Source: Fidelibacterota bacterium
GTDB lineage: Bacteria > Fidelibacterota > Marinisomatia > Marinisomatales > SCKK01
DNA: 45,954 nt
NCBI GenBank assembly: GCA_004124475.1
Contig: SCKK01000028.1
Coordinates: forward strand, 1 to 45,954
Direction: 5' to 3'
The position numbers and the translations under genes are program-made. This document shows positions 10,996-29,697 of this stretch, piece by piece (within the stretch, counting starts at the first letter, position 1; each line of letters opens with the position of its first letter). Under the pieces are notes generated by a model. The model ran no database searches. It had not been told where the DNA came from and saw only the letters and a program-made list of their open reading frames with translations.

Positions 10996-11316
10996 TAACG
11001 ATTTGCCAACACTAAATATACGGTATTAAAACACCGCATATTATTAACGTTGAAAATAAAAATGAAAAGAACACATAACAAATCGTTCTACCTAACATTT
11101 TTCCTTCCCGCTCCAAAATGCAGGCGAACTCAACCGTTGTGCAGTCAAGGAAGATTGTATTGTTTAAATTATCCGCTCCTTTAATTAAAGATTTGGGCAT
11201 TAAGACCTCTTCCATTAAAAGAACCTGGAAATACGCATACAGAATTAGCATTGCAATTTGATTAATGAGAAGTTAGATTTAATTTAAGTCATAACACTGA
11301 CTTTCTGCGGCTAAAG

Positions 11317-21354: not shown

Positions 21355-21533
21355 ATTTACTCCTTAAATTAAAAAACTTTTTTATTTTTATAGTACCTAA
21401 AATACGAAATAATTTAATTTCACTATTTGTAAATTTCACCTTTAGCTTCTTATGGATTTCGATTGTGAAAAATCATCTTTGTTACCTCCTTTCAAATTTT
21501 AATTATTGATTTTTATTTAATTAATTGTTGCTC

Positions 21534-21657
21534 GTTAACGATTTGAATAACTTGCCCCCAACAATAGTGGGTAGACTTGAATGATAAAGAAGTTGTAAAA
21601 AAAAAGGTAAATGAAAAAAGCTGGTTGTTGGGGGTTAAGTTTATTCTTTTGTTAGGA
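21534..21657 (-). other. attC-like site downstream of the alpha/beta hydrolase cassette
   Basis: On the minus strand: core TCCTAAC (21657-21651), a 4-nt unpaired spacer, then a 5' arm GAATAAACTTAACCCCC with CAACAA. The matching 3' arm is TTGTTGGGGG then CAAGTTATTC, a 5-nt spacer, and core GTTAACG (21540-21534). The arms pair over GAATAA, CTT and CCCCCAACAA, with extra bases only in the 5' arm. That asymmetry is a hallmark of attC sites. The loop is about 45 nt, so the site is long (124 nt). The core heptamers match the consensus only partly. Confidence 0.7.
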
Positions 21658-21712: not shown

Positions 21713-22795
21713 TCAGTCTTTCAAAAATTGTGGTAATACCTCTTTTCTAAAAGCCGTATTTTTTAGATATAAGCCACCATCATGTTCGTCCAGATCTTTG
21801 AATTCAACTCTTACAAATAGATTGGGGAAATCTTTGTCTAATTTCTTGAATACGTCAGGATCACATCCAACTGCTGTTGATCCTAATTTATACCCTAGCT
21901 TCAGTTTTTTCAACATAGGTATAAATTCTTTCTTTAATATTTTATCATTTTCATTCAATCCAATAATTATTTTATTAATTGGGGAGCCATTTTTTGGTAA
22001 ACTATCGAAAGCATATGTTCCAATTGCTGGCGCAATTAGCGCCATACGTACATTTGTAAATTTATTGATTTTAGAATTAAGTATAGATTCGAAATCGTAA
22101 TCATAAAATTTTTTGATCATACTTCTTGAGTCTTCTGAAATCTCTTGGTTTGCAAATGCACTAATAGCAACAGCAGCTCCCCTACTCGTTGTCAGAATTC
22201 TAATTGGTGTGGTCGGTTCAAATCGGTTTAATAATTTTCTAAAACCATTCATTCCAACCAATTTGGAGTATATTACTGCTTTCCACCATAATGAAATAAG
22301 TTCTTTAGGTCTCCCTTTTGGATGATATAGTCCATCCCAATGAACTTGTAAAAACACATAGTCTATATTTTCTTTATAGTATTCAGTTATAAACTTTCTT
22401 GCTATTGCGTAGGTTCCTCTTGCATCAGGTATGCTATTACTAAAACCGTGAATAAGAATGATTAGCTTTGTATCAGGACCAAGAGATTCCTTTATTCTTT
22501 TTGCTAATGTATCTAGCTCTTTCTCGTCATCATAATGATTTATTTTAAGGCTATCCTTCATATATTTCCGTACTGTGAAAGCATAATTTCCTATCTCATC
22601 TGGGGCCTGTAGTACTCTAAGTGTATCAGACAAAGGGTATATAACCCCACTTTGGTCAAACACAACTTGAAATACAGTATTTGATGAAATTACGCCCGGA
22701 TTCATCTTATATGAATCGTCCATTGGGATCACATGATACGCACAACCAGATTTCAGCAACACAATAAGTAGTAAAATGTTGAAATAGATTTTCAT
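21713..22795 (-). CDS. Alpha/beta-hydrolase-like lipoprotein (first cassette of unit III)
   Basis: The start at 22795 has GGGGG upstream and gives a lipoprotein signal (MKIYFNILLLIVLLKSGC, Cys18). The upstream ATG at 22849 would bury it. The fold signs are the LIILIHGFSNS strand-loop, a nucleophile elbow ILTTSRGAAVA (T-S-R-G in place of G-x-S-x-G), MALIAPAIG and a late His in DEHDGGLYL. It is probably an esterase or acyl hydrolase anchored to a membrane; the specificity is unknown. It starts 43 bp from a divergent integrase fragment and is followed by an attC-like site after 55 bp. Confidence 0.68.
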   Translation of the reverse strand: MKIYFNILLLIVLLKSGCAYHVIPMDDSYKMNPGVISSNTVFQVVFDQSGVIYPLSDTLRVLQAPDEIGNYAFTVRKYMKDSLKINHYDDEKELDTLAKRIKESLGPDTKLIILIHGFSNSIPDARGTYAIARKFITEYYKENIDYVFLQVHWDGLYHPKGRPKELISLWWKAVIYSKLVGMNGFRKLLNRFEPTTPIRILTTSRGAAVAISAFANQEISEDSRSMIKKFYDYDFESILNSKINKFTNVRMALIAPAIGTYAFDSLPKNGSPINKIIIGLNENDKILKKEFIPMLKKLKLGYKLGSTAVGCDPDVFKKLDKDFPNLFVRVEFKDLDEHDGGLYLKNTAFRKEVLPQFLKD

Positions 22796-22838
22796 AATAT
22801 TGCCCCCTTTGTTGGAGGGGAGTTTAAGAGAACAGTCT

Positions 22839-22985
22839 ATGGAAAACAAGAAAAAAACCTCACCAAAATTCTCTCCGGTCCCTGACCTGGAGCTAATGGA
22901 TCAGGTACGTCAAGTGTTAAGGTATCATCATTACTCTTATCGAACAGAACAGGCTTACTGCGGCTGGATAGTAAGATTTATTTAG
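22839..22985 (+). pseudogene. Integron-type integrase fragment, copy 1
   Basis: The 48 readable codons hold the N-terminal SAM-like part of an integron integrase-type tyrosine recombinase: DLELMDQVRQVLRYHHYSYR, then TEQAYCGWIVRFI. A TAG stop follows where the family continues with xxHG (YHG is still readable after the stop). The catalytic domain is absent. The fragment is divergent from the minus-strand cassettes, as intI normally is. The same stop occurs at the same codon in copy 2 (27267-27413), so the lesion predates their duplication. Confidence 0.8.
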
Positions 22986-23045: not shown

Positions 23046-23210
23046 TTACTTCCTCCGTCTTTTTTTCTTGCCGTTGTGTGATATGTGGTCTTCTAACACA
23101 ATGTGGAGGTAGTCCGATAAGCTGCGTCGATCGGCTTCAGCAAGCGCTTCTAAGGATTTCTTGAGAGATGGGGATACACGAAGAGCGATAAATTCATCTT
23201 TGGTTTCCAT
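23046..23210 (-). CDS. Ribbon-helix-helix protein, copy 1
   Basis: The 54 residues run METKDEFIALRVSPSLKKSL, then EALAEADRRSLSDYLHIVLE, then a very basic tail GKKKRRRK. A beta-strand of alternating residues followed by two helices is the Arc/MetJ/CopG pattern, so this is a small DNA-binding protein, perhaps an antitoxin-like repressor. The ATG at 23210 is chosen over 23249 because a promoter -10 and operator lie just upstream of it (23217-23245). A near-identical copy is at 27705-27869. No toxin partner is adjacent in either copy. Confidence 0.75.
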   Translation of the reverse strand: METKDEFIALRVSPSLKKSLEALAEADRRSLSDYLHIVLEDHISHNGKKKRRRK

Positions 23211-23216
23211 GGTTGT

Positions 23217-23245
23217 ATTGTATAACGTTGTTAAACATTTTGCAA
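23217..23245 (-). promoter_or_regulatory. Promoter and palindromic operator of RHH copy 1
   Basis: On the minus strand there is a -35-like TTGCAA (23245-23240), a 17-nt spacer and -10 TACAAT (23222-23217). GTTTAACAACGTTATAC (23236-23220) overlaps spacer and -10, with arms GTTTAAC/GTATAAC. The site is conserved at 27876-27904. Confidence 0.6.
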
Positions 23246-23293
23246 GCACATTGTGGTGAGAGATGGAAAAGGTTTTTGGAACGATCCTTCCCG

Positions 23294-23313: not shown

Positions 23314-23407
23314 GAGGGAACCCTATTCCACAGGGCAAGATGAAAAAGGAATGTTCTAAAGCCTAGTGATATAGAAGAAAATTTATACTACCGAAGGTTT
23401 AATTCAA

Positions 23408-23433
23408 CCGTCGGCTGGAGTGATTTGTTATGT
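23408..23433 (-). other. Half attC remnant after the DUF2971 gene
   Basis: On the minus strand, starting about 38 bp after the DUF2971 stop, the sequence reads ACATAAC core, AAATC spacer, then ACTCCAGCCGACGG. This is a standard attC left half. The matching right half (…CCGTCGGCT…GTTRRRY) is missing; only CCTTCGG follows. I read it as a truncated attC. Confidence 0.5.
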
Positions 23434-23470: not shown

Positions 23471-24214
23471 TCATAATAATGAAGGGTCTGCTAGACTAGA
23501 TTGTTTCACCGGTTTATCTAGGTTATATTTTTTTACAACGGCACCAACTAGGTCCATAAACCACTGAGGGGCTGTAGGAGATACAAGTATATTTTTAATG
23601 AGAATATTTAGATCGACAGGAATATATATACCGCTATCATGCGGTTTAATTGTCCAATCTATTTGACCTAATTTATTAATCGGTAATTGTTGTATAACTG
23701 CCCTTATTTCTTGCTCATGTGCAAAACTTTTTCTTTTATGAAAAAATGGAGCTATGAGGTCGCCTTCGGGCATTGAAAAGGACTCGAAATCAATATACTT
23801 TACATCATGTATATTCATTACGCCTTGTACTTCGTTCTTTCCAAGTTCTTTTATAAGAGAATCAAAGGTCGATTGGATTGCGATTCCTGCATCAGATTTA
23901 ATGTATAATTCCCACATCGCAGCAGATTCATACTCATTCCAATGCCAACAGTTTACAATAGTGTATTTTCTAATTTTTCTTAGAAAATCTAGAATTTTCT
24001 CTCCTCCTTTGACATAATCTTTAAAAGAAGCGGAGAGTCGTTCCAGGTTGGCTTTTGTCCAAGAACCTTCAAATTGATCTAGTAGCTTATCTGCTCTGGT
24101 AAAAAATAGTGCCTGTTTATCTAATAGCGATATAAATTTTGTAAAATCAAGATATCTCCATATCATAACCTTTTCATTCACCGTTTGTTGACTGCTCGAA
24201 ACTGATTTATTCAT
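23471..24214 (-). CDS. DUF2971 domain protein (cassette-like)
   Basis: The 247 residues show the DUF2971 pattern: WRYLDFTKFISLLDKQALFF, TRADKLLDQFEGSWTKAN, CWHWNEYESAAMWELYIKSD, GIAIQSTFDSL, then FFHKRKSFAHEQEIRAVI and the ILVSPTAPQWF region. The function is not established, though such genes are often found in accessory and defence regions. It begins 18 bp after a perfect GTTAGGT core (24239-24233) and is followed by a truncated attC half. Both fit an integron cassette on the minus strand. Its composition is AT-rich, unlike the upstream GC-richer secreted protein gene. Confidence 0.8.
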   Translation of the reverse strand: MNKSVSSSQQTVNEKVMIWRYLDFTKFISLLDKQALFFTRADKLLDQFEGSWTKANLERLSASFKDYVKGGEKILDFLRKIRKYTIVNCWHWNEYESAAMWELYIKSDAGIAIQSTFDSLIKELGKNEVQGVMNIHDVKYIDFESFSMPEGDLIAPFFHKRKSFAHEQEIRAVIQQLPINKLGQIDWTIKPHDSGIYIPVDLNILIKNILVSPTAPQWFMDLVGAVVKKYNLDKPVKQSSLADPSLL

Positions 24215-24225
24215 AATACCTTATT

Positions 24226-24363
24226 ATATGATACCTAACGATATCTATGTTCCCCATTGCTGGGAAGAGTAATTTATGATGAAAAACCTGATGGGTTATC
24301 AGGTTTAAACCTTGAACCAACAAAGGGGAACTATGATGAATAAACCTTCCTTTGGTATCATAT
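24226..24363 (-). other. Nested inverted repeat with attC-like core
   Basis: Three stems are nested: ATATGATACC/GGTATCATAT (24226-24235, 24354-24363), GTTCCCC/GGGGAAC (24249-24255, 24325-24331) and AAACCTGAT/ATCAGGTTT (24284-24306). On the minus strand the 3' end carries GTTAGGT (24239-24233), a perfect GTTRRRY core right before the DUF2971 gene. The 5' core is not recognisable (ACCAAAG). It is either a decayed attC or a cassette-boundary hairpin. Confidence 0.55.
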
Positions 24364-24367
24364 GATA

Positions 24368-27072: not shown

Positions 27073-27108
27073 AGCGTTCGACTGAGCTCACGCCGAAGTC
27101 TGGCGGAT
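27073..27108. repeat. Second copy of the 36-bp dispersed repeat
   Basis: It is an exact inverse complement of 17025-17060. It lies in the apparent 5' extension of the large secreted protein gene, showing that extension is not genuine coding sequence. Confidence 0.75.
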
Positions 27109-27165
27109 CGGGCAGGATAGACTGGAAATAATAACCATCTACTGATATATTGTGATCGGAATATG

Positions 27166-27185
27166 CCTGCCTGCCGGCAGGCAGG
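27166..27185. repeat. Perfect 20-bp GC-rich palindrome
   Basis: CCTGCCTGCCGGCAGGCAGG is its own reverse complement. It lies in the gap between the integrase fragment copy 2 and the secreted protein gene. Confidence 0.7.
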
Positions 27186-27266
27186 GAATAATAATTGGTG
27201 TTTGTCTATGTATAATTGCTTTAATATGGTTAGCATAGAATTTTAACATAATTAACGGGTAAGATT

Positions 27267-27413
27267 ATGAAATTACCATACAATTTTCAACCTAAATTTG
27301 TTCCTGACCCAGACCTGAAACTCATGGATCAGATACGTCAAGTATTAAGGTATCATCATTACGCTTATCGAACAGAACAAGCTTACCGTGGCTGGATAGT
27401 AAGATTTATTTAG
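27267..27413 (+). pseudogene. Integron-type integrase fragment, copy 2
   Basis: An ATG-started frame of 48 codons, MKLPYNFQPKFVPDPDLKLM then DQIRQVLRYHHYAYRTEQAY and RGWIVRFI, stops at TAG. The downstream residues YHG are still readable after the stop. The start differs from copy 1, but from PDLxLMDQ onward the two agree closely. The identical stop codon shows shared decay. It is divergent from the minus-strand genes. Confidence 0.8.
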
Positions 27414-27447
27414 TACCACGGGACCAAACTCAGTCAGTGTTCTTGAT

Positions 27448-27704: not shown

Positions 27705-27869
27705 TTACTTCTTCCGTCTTTTTTTCTTGCCCTTGTGTGATATGTGGTCTTCTAACACAATGCGGAGGTAGTCCGATAAGATGCGGCGATCGGCTTCAGT
27801 AAGCACTTCTAAGGATTTCTTGAGAGATGGGGATACACGAAGAGTGATAAATTCATCTTTGGTTTCCAT
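27705..27869 (-). CDS. Ribbon-helix-helix protein, copy 2
   Basis: The 54 residues begin METKDEFITLRVSPSLKKSL and end GKKKRRKK, differing from copy 1 at only a few positions. Reading frame, length and upstream operator are all conserved, unlike the neighbouring integrase fragments. This suggests the gene stayed under selection after duplication. It sits between the GNAT cassette's attC and the integrase fragment. It could regulate itself, or formerly the integrase; no toxin gene is next to it. Confidence 0.75.
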   Translation of the reverse strand: METKDEFITLRVSPSLKKSLEVLTEADRRILSDYLRIVLEDHISHKGKKKRRKK

Positions 27870-27987: not shown

Positions 27988-28071
27988 GATTAACGGCGAA
28001 AATAAGCTACCTGGGACTGAGCGCGGCAAAGCCGCGCAGAGAACCAACTAAGCTTCATTCTCTTGTTATCT
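27988..28071 (-). other. attC site of the GNAT cassette
   Basis: On the minus strand: core AGATAAC (28071-28065), spacer AAGAG, 2L AATGAAGCT, a central hairpin GCGCGGC-TTT-GCCGCGC, 2R AGCTTATT, a short spacer, and core GTTAATC (27994-27988). 2L pairs with 2R except for one extra G in 2L, the diagnostic unpaired base. The GNAT stop codon lies inside the site, as is common for integron cassettes. Confidence 0.85.
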
Positions 28072-28486
28072 GCCCATTTGCTTTTGAATGCTCACGGTTG
28101 CGTATAATCATCCCGATCTTGCTTGAAAACCCAAGTTGCTGATAAAAGCCCTTTAGAGTTTCATCGCATTGTAGATCAATCGCGTACATGCTTGAAAGAC
28201 TATCGATCATACGTTTGACGAGTTCTCGACCAATACCTTTCCCTCGATACGCGGGTAGGACTTCCAAGAGAGGAATGTACGCATAGAAGACACCATCCGA
28301 AATGGCGTTGATTCGGCCAACGCATTGCTGACCATCCATGGCCAGCCATACCTTGTAGCTGCCGGCAAGGATGCGAAGATGCGCCTCGGCATCAGGATAC
28401 GTTAGCCAGTCGACGAAGAAACCTTGTAATTGGTCGGCAGTGAAGCCTTCGAGATTATCCGTATAGCTTACATCCATCTTCTTCAC
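28055..28486 (-). CDS. GNAT-family N-acetyltransferase cassette
   Basis: The 143 residues carry the GNAT acetyl-CoA motif PAYRGKGIGRELVKRM near residues 80-95 with R-x-x-G-x-G, preceded by YAYIPLLEVLP, and end with a FYQQLGFS strand typical of motif B. The substrate is unknown. The first codon is GTG at 28486, only 2 nt after the attC core of the preceding cassette; ATG at 28477 is the alternative. No ribosome site precedes it. Its end overlaps its own attC by 17 bp. It is flanked on both sides by good attC sites, so this is the clearest single cassette in the window. Confidence 0.87.
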   Translation of the reverse strand: MKKMDVSYTDNLEGFTADQLQGFFVDWLTYPDAEAHLRILAGSYKVWLAMDGQQCVGRINAISDGVFYAYIPLLEVLPAYRGKGIGRELVKRMIDSLSSMYAIDLQCDETLKGFYQQLGFSSKIGMIIRNREHSKANGQITRE

Positions 28487-28488
28487 GC

Positions 28489-28559
28489 AGATAACGCTGA
28501 GGTTAACCGTTTTTTTTGGAGCACAGCGGAAAAAAATCCGGTTGAACCGTTTGTTAGGT
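28489..28559 (-). other. attC site of the HEPN-motif cassette
   Basis: On the minus strand: perfect core ACCTAAC (28559-28553), spacer AAACG, 2L GGTTCAACCG, T-tract, loop, A-tract, 2R CGGTTAACC, spacer TCAGC and core GTTATCT (28495-28489). 2L pairs with 2R apart from one extra C in 2L. The T- and A-tracts extend the stem. The upstream gene's TAA lies inside the first core. Confidence 0.9.
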
Positions 28560-29216
28560 CTTTAGTAGATTTTTTTCAATATCTAACAGAAGATAAATGG
28601 CGTCCCCTGGCCCTAAAAATCCACGCTTCTGGTTATCCCAAAAAAGAAGTGTTCCATGAAGGGATTTGTCGATTTTTAATGAGCGCCATTGAGCGAGCCT
28701 TCGAGGTTCATTTCTCATCAAATTAAAGTGACCTTTATGTGCAGCGGCATTCCTACAATGGCGTAGAAATTCCCAAAGTGGCTCGTGATTATGATCAGCA
28801 CCTGTTAACTCCCAAGCCATTATTAATAAGGCTCCCGCTGACAAACTACCAAAAAAGTTCATGGAAACTTTAGGATCTGAAATAATAGCACTTGCAAGAA
28901 GTGATGTATTTACTTTTGGCCCTTTATCAAAAACACTGCCAAGCCTTTGGACACCTACAATTGGAGACGATTTAGACTGCAAAACGGCTTGGACATGCTC
29001 CTTATAACCATCATTAATCCCTTCACAGAACTCTTTAATTTTCTCATTAGCTTCTTCAACATCCTGCTGAAGGTTACTTTCTGCTTTAATGAATAGATTT
29101 CGCATTCCCCTAGCAGATAGATCCAATAGACCGTGTACTTGAGCAGCATATGCTACAACAATTGAATAAAATGGTTTCTTTGTATCAAATTCTATATGAG
29201 GTTCAATAAAATTCAT
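28554..29216 (-). CDS. HEPN-motif hypothetical protein (first cassette of unit I)
   Basis: The 220 residues are mostly helical. The only recognisable signature is FLRHCRNAAAHKGHF, with R155-x4-H160, the R-x4-6-H catalytic pattern of HEPN RNases, in a helix preceded by the acidic EPLWEF. HEPN proteins act as toxins or phage-defence nucleases, but the motif alone does not prove it. The ATG follows a perfect GTTAGGT core by 10 nt. The stop codon is inside its attC, so the gene fills its cassette exactly. No antitoxin is visible in the cassette. Confidence 0.7.
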   Translation of the reverse strand: MNFIEPHIEFDTKKPFYSIVVAYAAQVHGLLDLSARGMRNLFIKAESNLQQDVEEANEKIKEFCEGINDGYKEHVQAVLQSKSSPIVGVQRLGSVFDKGPKVNTSLLASAIISDPKVSMNFFGSLSAGALLIMAWELTGADHNHEPLWEFLRHCRNAAAHKGHFNLMRNEPRRLAQWRSLKIDKSLHGTLLFWDNQKRGFLGPGDAIYLLLDIEKNLLKT

Positions 29217-29226
29217 TATTATTTTG

Positions 29227-29233
29227 ACCTAAC
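29227..29233 (-). other. Cassette insertion core (attI- or attC-like)
   Basis: On the minus strand GTTAGGT matches GTTRRRY perfectly and sits 10 nt before the first cassette gene of unit I. Upstream is a small TGGAAA/TTTCCA hairpin but no full attC. The integrase fragment copy 3 starts about 220 bp away on the other strand, so this may be the attI point. The intervening bases hold only GC-rich repeat patches. Confidence 0.5.
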
Positions 29234-29450
29234 TCGTCAATCAATGGAAAAGTTTCCACGATATAACCCTTCCCGCCCTGTCTGACTGTATATGCGTGGG
29301 CAGGCTGACTGGACGTTAGTTTGGGCAGGATAGCTTGGAAATTATTCCGCATATTCTTATCCATCACTTAAAAAAGCGGAAAATATCCTGTATGTCATCC
29401 ACATATTGAAACAACCTTTTTGTTACAGGGGAGTTTAAGAGAACAGCCTA

Positions 29451-29697
29451 TTGAAAACAAGAACTAAACCTCACCCCTGCCCGTCCGGCAGGCGGGAAAA
29501 TTCTCCCTAAACCCCGACCTGTGGTGAAATATGATCATATTCCGGTCGTGATGACACAAGATGAAGTGAAGTCGGTTTTCAACCCGATGCACGGGTATCA
29601 TTTGATCATGGCGAAGCTGCTGTACGGAGGTGGTCTTCGGTTGATGGAGTGTATGCGGTTACGGGTTTACGCCAAACTTAGGTTTGTTTCTCCATAG
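29451..29697 (+). pseudogene. Integron-type integrase fragment, copy 3 (catalytic part)
   Basis: The first about 35 bases match copy 1 (the stretch from GGGGAGTTTAAGAGAACAG onward), including a TTG where copy 1 has ATG. A CCTGCC/GGCAGG palindrome interrupts at 29476-29492. After an internal deletion the sequence encodes part of the catalytic domain, VVKYDHIPVVMTQDEVKSVF through HLIMAKLLYGGGLRLMECMR then LRVYAKL and a stop. LLYGxGLRLMExxRLR is the first catalytic-arginine box of integron integrases. This fragment shows what family the other two pieces belong to. Confidence 0.82.
29476..29492. repeat. CCTGCC/GGCAGG palindrome inside integrase fragment
   Basis: Arms CCTGCC (29476-29481) and GGCAGG (29487-29492). 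Copy 1 of the same sequence lacks it, so it is an insertion. Confidence 0.6.

Follow-up and report, generated by a model that had tools for sequence, protein, structure and literature searches.

A very probable attC site of a GNAT gene cassette in a decayed chromosomal integron of a Fidelibacterota bacterium

The window, i.e., the whole stretch of 45,954 nucleotides analysed here (contig SCKK01000028.1 of a Fidelibacterota bacterium, GenBank assembly GCA_004124475.1), contains the following integron features and neighbouring genes, with the array adjoining efp.

29330 to 29667, plus strand: relic of an integron integrase gene (intI), oriented divergently from the cassettes, gapped internally and truncated at its 3' end
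29227 to 29345, minus strand: attI region; six platforms are homologous as far as G|TT, and each continues into a different cassette
28554 to 29216, minus strand: first cassette gene, 220 aa, without family match, with its stop in R'' of attC1
28489 to 28559, minus strand: attC1, the preceding canonical attC (R'' ACCTAAC, R' GTTATCT), with the same layout as attC2
28055 to 28477, minus strand: GNAT acetyltransferase gene (PF13673, 7.7e-14; ATG at 28477)
27994 to 28494, minus strand: GNAT gene cassette of 501 bp, delimited by two crossovers predicted by the integron G|TT rule
27988 to 28071, minus strand: attC2, the site under study, very probably the attC of the GNAT cassette
27108 to 27421, plus strand: second attI/intI 5' relic
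23471 to 24214, minus strand: gene of 247 aa, PADLOC candidate defence family PDC-S31 (E 2.5e-19)
23390 to 23433, minus strand: half attC, consisting of R'', spacer, and L'' only, behind the PDC-S31-like gene of 247 aa
22804 to 23001, plus strand: third intI 5' relic
21533 to 21657, minus strand: further candidate attC (L arms 8/8, 10-bp continued stem) after a lipoprotein-like ORF at 21713 to 22849
11073 to 11142, plus strand: lone attC outside the array, following a small ORF and without neighbouring integrase

The ATG of the GNAT gene lies 17 bases past the G|TT crossover of attC1, translation could alternatively start from an open GTG at 28486, and the stop codon falls inside the L'' arm of attC2. 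PADLOC gave no match for the GNAT or the 220-aa protein; among viral contigs, no relative of the 220-aa protein was found, and those of the GNAT were remote (4 loci, at best 42% over 49 residues). By eye alone, the 220-aa protein showed a HEPN-like motif, which is not claimed here. Promoter-like sites in the region were fewer than in shuffles (2 vs 4.1), and for this reason no Pc is claimed. A small RHH-like gene (RelB-like, E 0.042) is located in a repeated element (27705 to 27869 and 23046 to 23249, minus strand), of which more copies occur in the genome and in its congener at 92–97% identity, some adjoining an attI/intI relic. Additionally, a MITE-like element at 24222 to 24367 has terminal inverted repeats of 20 nt and further copies in the genome, and matches to the T9SS sorting domain were seen.

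Read along the minus strand, attC2 is composed of these parts, in this order.

28065 to 28071, minus strand: R'' AGATAAC, followed by the 5-nt spacer AAGAG
28051 to 28059, minus strand: L'' AATGAAGCT, with an extra G at 28056
28021 to 28037, minus strand: terminal hairpin GCGCGGC/GCCGCGC
28001 to 28008, minus strand: L' AGCTTATT, followed by the 6-nt spacer TTCGCC
27988 to 27994, minus strand: R' GTTAATC

An earlier note had described an attC with these cores, L arms, single extra G, and terminal hairpin, and every element was recovered in place on the minus strand. The layout is 7-5-9 ... 8-6-7, the one extra base being the fourth position of L'', and L'' and L' pair at 8/8 positions once this base is skipped. 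The inverted repeats have AAC and GTT cores and canonical spacing, and the extrahelical base of the L arm (G 28056, minus strand), which gives the site its strand asymmetry, is placed at the same index as in the references. R'' matches the site's own R' at 4/7 positions only. Compared with RYYYAAC/GTTRRRY, the cores AGATAAC/GTTAATC keep AAC/GTT and depart at 2 and 1 positions, respectively; departures from the consensus R core also occur in other attC sites of the same genome. The plus strand of the window, which would be the recombining strand of attC2, folds with a z-score of -2.49, with 1 of 200 shuffles equally stable. For the bottom strand of the GNAT attC, DNA folding gave -17.7 kcal/mol in the circle form vs -14.4 kcal/mol in the integrated form.

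The chance expectation was estimated using a scan for the exact layout together with 8/8 L pairs, with the reference layout measured on attC sites of plasmid class 1 integrons; this fixed-geometry scan replaced an earlier regex scan with loose rules, which had given mixed results. The window gave three sites, each on the minus strand (28489 to 28559, 27988 to 28071, and 21533 to 21657), at an expectation of 0.1 per window (mean of 100 dinucleotide shuffles), and none were found in 391,516 bases of control DNA from 53 loci of unrelated genomes. The scan is specific rather than sensitive: applied to array DNA (91,942 bases), it returned no more than 3 sites. In addition, two covariance models were trained without any site of the window, R1 on 12 sites (11 plasmid, 1 from a relative) and R2 on 19 sites (10 from this genome and the congener, 8 plasmid, 1 from a relative). 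The R2 alignment (A3, 19 rows) contains only sites with standard spacing, so that R2 favours that geometry; 87.7% of its cells are paired, and its covariation score of 0.472 vs 0.155 in shuffles supports the arms. An alignment of 21 sites of the own lineage (A2) was dropped because sites with other spacings were aligned out of register.

Searching the window with these models, as the earlier note had proposed, placed attC2 at the right coordinates, albeit weakly: R1 located it at 27988 to 28070 (15.5 bits, E 0.09 for 46 kb), and R2 recovered its exact ends, 27988 to 28071 (20.8 bits, E 0.018 for 46 kb). For attC1, R1 yielded 34.4 bits (E 8.1e-7) and R2 44 bits (E 1.8e-7), and for the lone site at 11073 to 11142, R1 yielded 32.9 bits (E 2e-6) and R2 28.6 bits (E 3.8e-4). 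The candidate at 21533 to 21657 received no support from the covariance models; judged by its arms, it is probably a further attC. In whole-genome searches, in which at most 150 best candidates were scored per genome, the R2 list at E ≤ 2 comprised at least 37 attC-like matches for this genome and at least 17 for the congener, ten of them being training sites, and attC2 was not among the matches listed for R2 or R1. The score of attC2 is marginal when taken alone; its position behind a strong attC, on the same strand and with one ORF between them, makes the assignment safe, and the textbook geometry and the weak placement by both models support the reading of 27988 to 28071 as an attC.

An ordinary hairpin behind a chromosomal GNAT gene, i.e., a terminator or a REP-like repeat that resembles an attC by chance, is extremely unlikely. 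Such a hairpin would fit the strong GC stem, the marginal covariance score, and a genome rich in short palindromic repeats, but not an arm geometry that, extra base included, is expected 0.1 times in a shuffled window and was absent from the control DNA. No terminator-like site was called at attC2, no T-run follows its hairpin, and an Rfam search of the window returned nothing above the gathering scores. Nor is the sequence of attC2 repetitive: elsewhere in the genome, 27900 to 28150 has a single match, which covers the RHH element and not the site. The relation of R'' to the preceding attC also argues against a chance hairpin. In an integrated array, each attC takes its R' from the beginning of the cassette that follows, and hence the R'' of a cassette pairs with the cassette's own first bases. 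R'' of attC2, AGATAAC, is the exact reverse complement (7/7) of R' of attC1, GTTATCT (28489 to 28495), an inverse match that had already been pointed out and considered as expected at a conserved cassette boundary. Reference arrays agree with this expectation, as closure was 7/7 in 8 of 10 neighbouring pairs of plasmid class 1 arrays (6/7 in the other 2) and in 13 of 15 pairs of an Anaerolineales array genome; in other arrays of the present genome it was 7/7 in 5 of 11 pairs, some of which are non-neighbouring or out of register. In the first cassette, the cassette's own R'' ACCTAAC is fully complementary to GTTAGGT on the attI side. The AGATAAC/GTTATCT match is the circle-closure signature of a cassette, and together with the single ORF between successive attC sites of the same orientation it identifies a gene cassette. 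Just past attC2 on the array side, neither an intact attC nor a GATTAAC-type R'' for a next cassette was found.

attI proper is located at 29230 to 29259, where the array begins, and the sequence at 29227 to 29345 is homologous to sequence adjoining other integrase genes of this genome. The six attI copies that were aligned, including one of the congener, are alike as far as G|TT and diverge thereafter, placing attI at a G|TT junction with the first cassette. A pattern derived from these copies matched seven times in this genome and once in the congener, while the reversed pattern, used as a control, gave 0 matches. The integrase gene at the locus is a relic only, and uninterrupted copies reside on other contigs: six matches in the genome exceed the curated cut-off of the integron-integrase model TIGR02249, four of them uninterrupted and two broken. 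The integrases on contigs C57, C71, and C54 retain what we take, by eye, to be the HxxR, H, and Y motif residues; that on C50 has a Tyr in place of what is presumably the first His of HxxR, and the congener copy on C128 has His at this position. With the second and third relics, remnants of what look like three integrons lie side by side in the window, in a presumed order.

Taken together, we consider attC2, with a probability of roughly 0.93, as the attC of the 501-bp GNAT cassette, second in a decayed sedentary chromosomal integron adjoining efp. The array is ordered as attI, the 220-aa gene, attC1, GNAT, and attC2. An integron integrase would fold the bottom strand (plus strand of the window) into a hairpin and cut the R box at G|TT, the resulting circle would be inserted at attI or at another attC, and in the circle R'' AGATAAC would pair with GTTATCT. 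We infer that attC2 recombines and that an integrase encoded elsewhere would act on it in trans.

The efp contig of the congener begins inside the same intI relic, and the 3' truncation is common to both species at the same efp edge. Because this breakpoint is shared, the local integrase was presumably dead before the two species parted. The region of the window from 19.7 to 29.5 kb otherwise had only repeats and short partial matches in the congener, whose contigs end at this locus, so that its cassettes there are unreadable. The GNAT gene is absent from this only congener (93% complete). Such a difference in content would require a loss in one of the two species or the action of a non-local integrase; with the local integrase being a relic, exchange of any kind would depend on an integrase gene located elsewhere in the cell.

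These observations bear on the possibility that attC2 is a fossil, i.e., a former cassette boundary at which the changed cores AGATAAC/GTTAATC no longer recombine and the GNAT gene is fixed. The truncation of the array's integrase before the split from the congener, the decay visible in the nearby half attC, and the low score relative to attC1 all suit a fossil, whereas the intact AAC/GTT cores and 8/8 L arms, the perfect pairing of R'' with the cassette start, and an intact attI matching those adjoining complete integrase genes point the other way; we regard a fossil as possible, although on the doubtful side.

The distribution of the GNAT gene is patchy. Fixation of the gene and both sites in all relatives, which had been named as evidence against a cassette, was not observed: besides the absence from the congener, no GNAT match above 42% identity was found among 60 relatives of the order, and 23 of 61 genomes (own included) had a match at E 0.001. 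Within the phylum, 7 of 245 genomes (own included) matched at E 1e-20, with 57% as the highest identity outside the own genome, and 238 of the 244 other genomes had no match at this threshold. The closest relative (80% over 140 residues) was found in a MAG of the Anaerolineales, and this MAG alone exceeded 50% identity among 301 genomes drawn from that order. In the GNAT tree, the path to the Anaerolineales copy is 0.23 vs 0.89 to the next row; the tree does not resolve the deep nodes, pairs the two copies by distance, and gives no direction of transfer. At the DNA level, the homology to the MAG is a single ungapped block of 432 bp (28062 to 28493 of the window, 347/432 identical), which begins one base inside the crossover; its 3' end lies just past R'' but also near the coding end, so that only the 5' end is independent evidence. 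The MAG had 26 attC-like matches at E ≤ 5, and their arms are nearly uniform (CTCCACC...) and resemble those of a chromosomal array. Its GNAT copy resides on a contig with other genes, and no attC was detected at this copy, with R2 included in the search; a degenerate attC behind it (6/8 L pairs, R'-like ATTAGCC) was rejected, as a second position scored equally and R2 returned nothing.

The GNAT cassette appears to have arrived laterally. Vertical inheritance of the GNAT gene with losses in the relatives and independent arrival of the attC sites around it is very unlikely: homologues at 49–57% identity in a few genomes of the phylum would be compatible with it, but the relative that is nearest by far lies in the Anaerolineales MAG, at the path lengths and with the limit on deep nodes given above, and nearly all other genomes of the phylum had no match at E 1e-20. 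A broader scenario, which we offer tentatively and consider rather unlikely as a whole, is that one platform has multiplied in the genus, leaving at least seven attI copies, many dead relics, dozens of scattered attC sites, and few live integrases acting in trans, and that GNAT-like cassettes may move between these dispersed docking sites and across phyla despite a dead local integrase.

The locus adds to this lineage a well-supported cassette with both boundaries and attI. The close GNAT pair in two phyla, both genomes having attC sites, is a concrete candidate for the transfer of a cassette between phyla, and since the congener has the dead integrase but not the cassette, integrase action in trans is testable at one locus. 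In the literature collection searched, no paper was found on integrons, Marinimicrobia, and attC, and none on integrons in Anaerolineales as judged by title and abstract. Integrons are listed for many phyla, Chloroflexota included (PMC8618304), attC covariance models by taxon are established (PMC8352920), and an integrase acting in trans can still excise or capture cassettes that have none nearby, with cassettes passing even between domains (PMC9668308). Several integrases per genome and single attC sites scattered about are described for Shewanella (PMC9229058), and R and L repeats, extrahelical bases, an unpaired central spacer, a variable terminal structure, and bottom-strand preference are listed as attC features (PMC8946536).

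The system of attC2 is a new example of a decayed sedentary chromosomal integron, a kind already known. With the attC sites (59-base elements) of class 1 integron cassettes on plasmids, attC2 shares the arm order, the spacing 7-5-9 ... 8-6-7, the position of the extra base in L'', the AAC/GTT cores, the strand logic, and the closure rule. It differs from them in that R'' AGATAAC and R' GTTAATC lie outside RYYYAAC/GTTRRRY and in its extra base on the top strand, which is a G, as is frequent in other attC sites of this genome, whereas most of the class 1 sites used have a C. Like sedentary chromosomal integrons whose integrase has decayed, and like CALIN and SALIN elements, the locus has attI and cassettes beside a non-functional intI, with lone attC sites elsewhere in the genome; unlike those integrons, this genome has seven copies of one attI type, and this window holds three integrase relics within about 7 kb.
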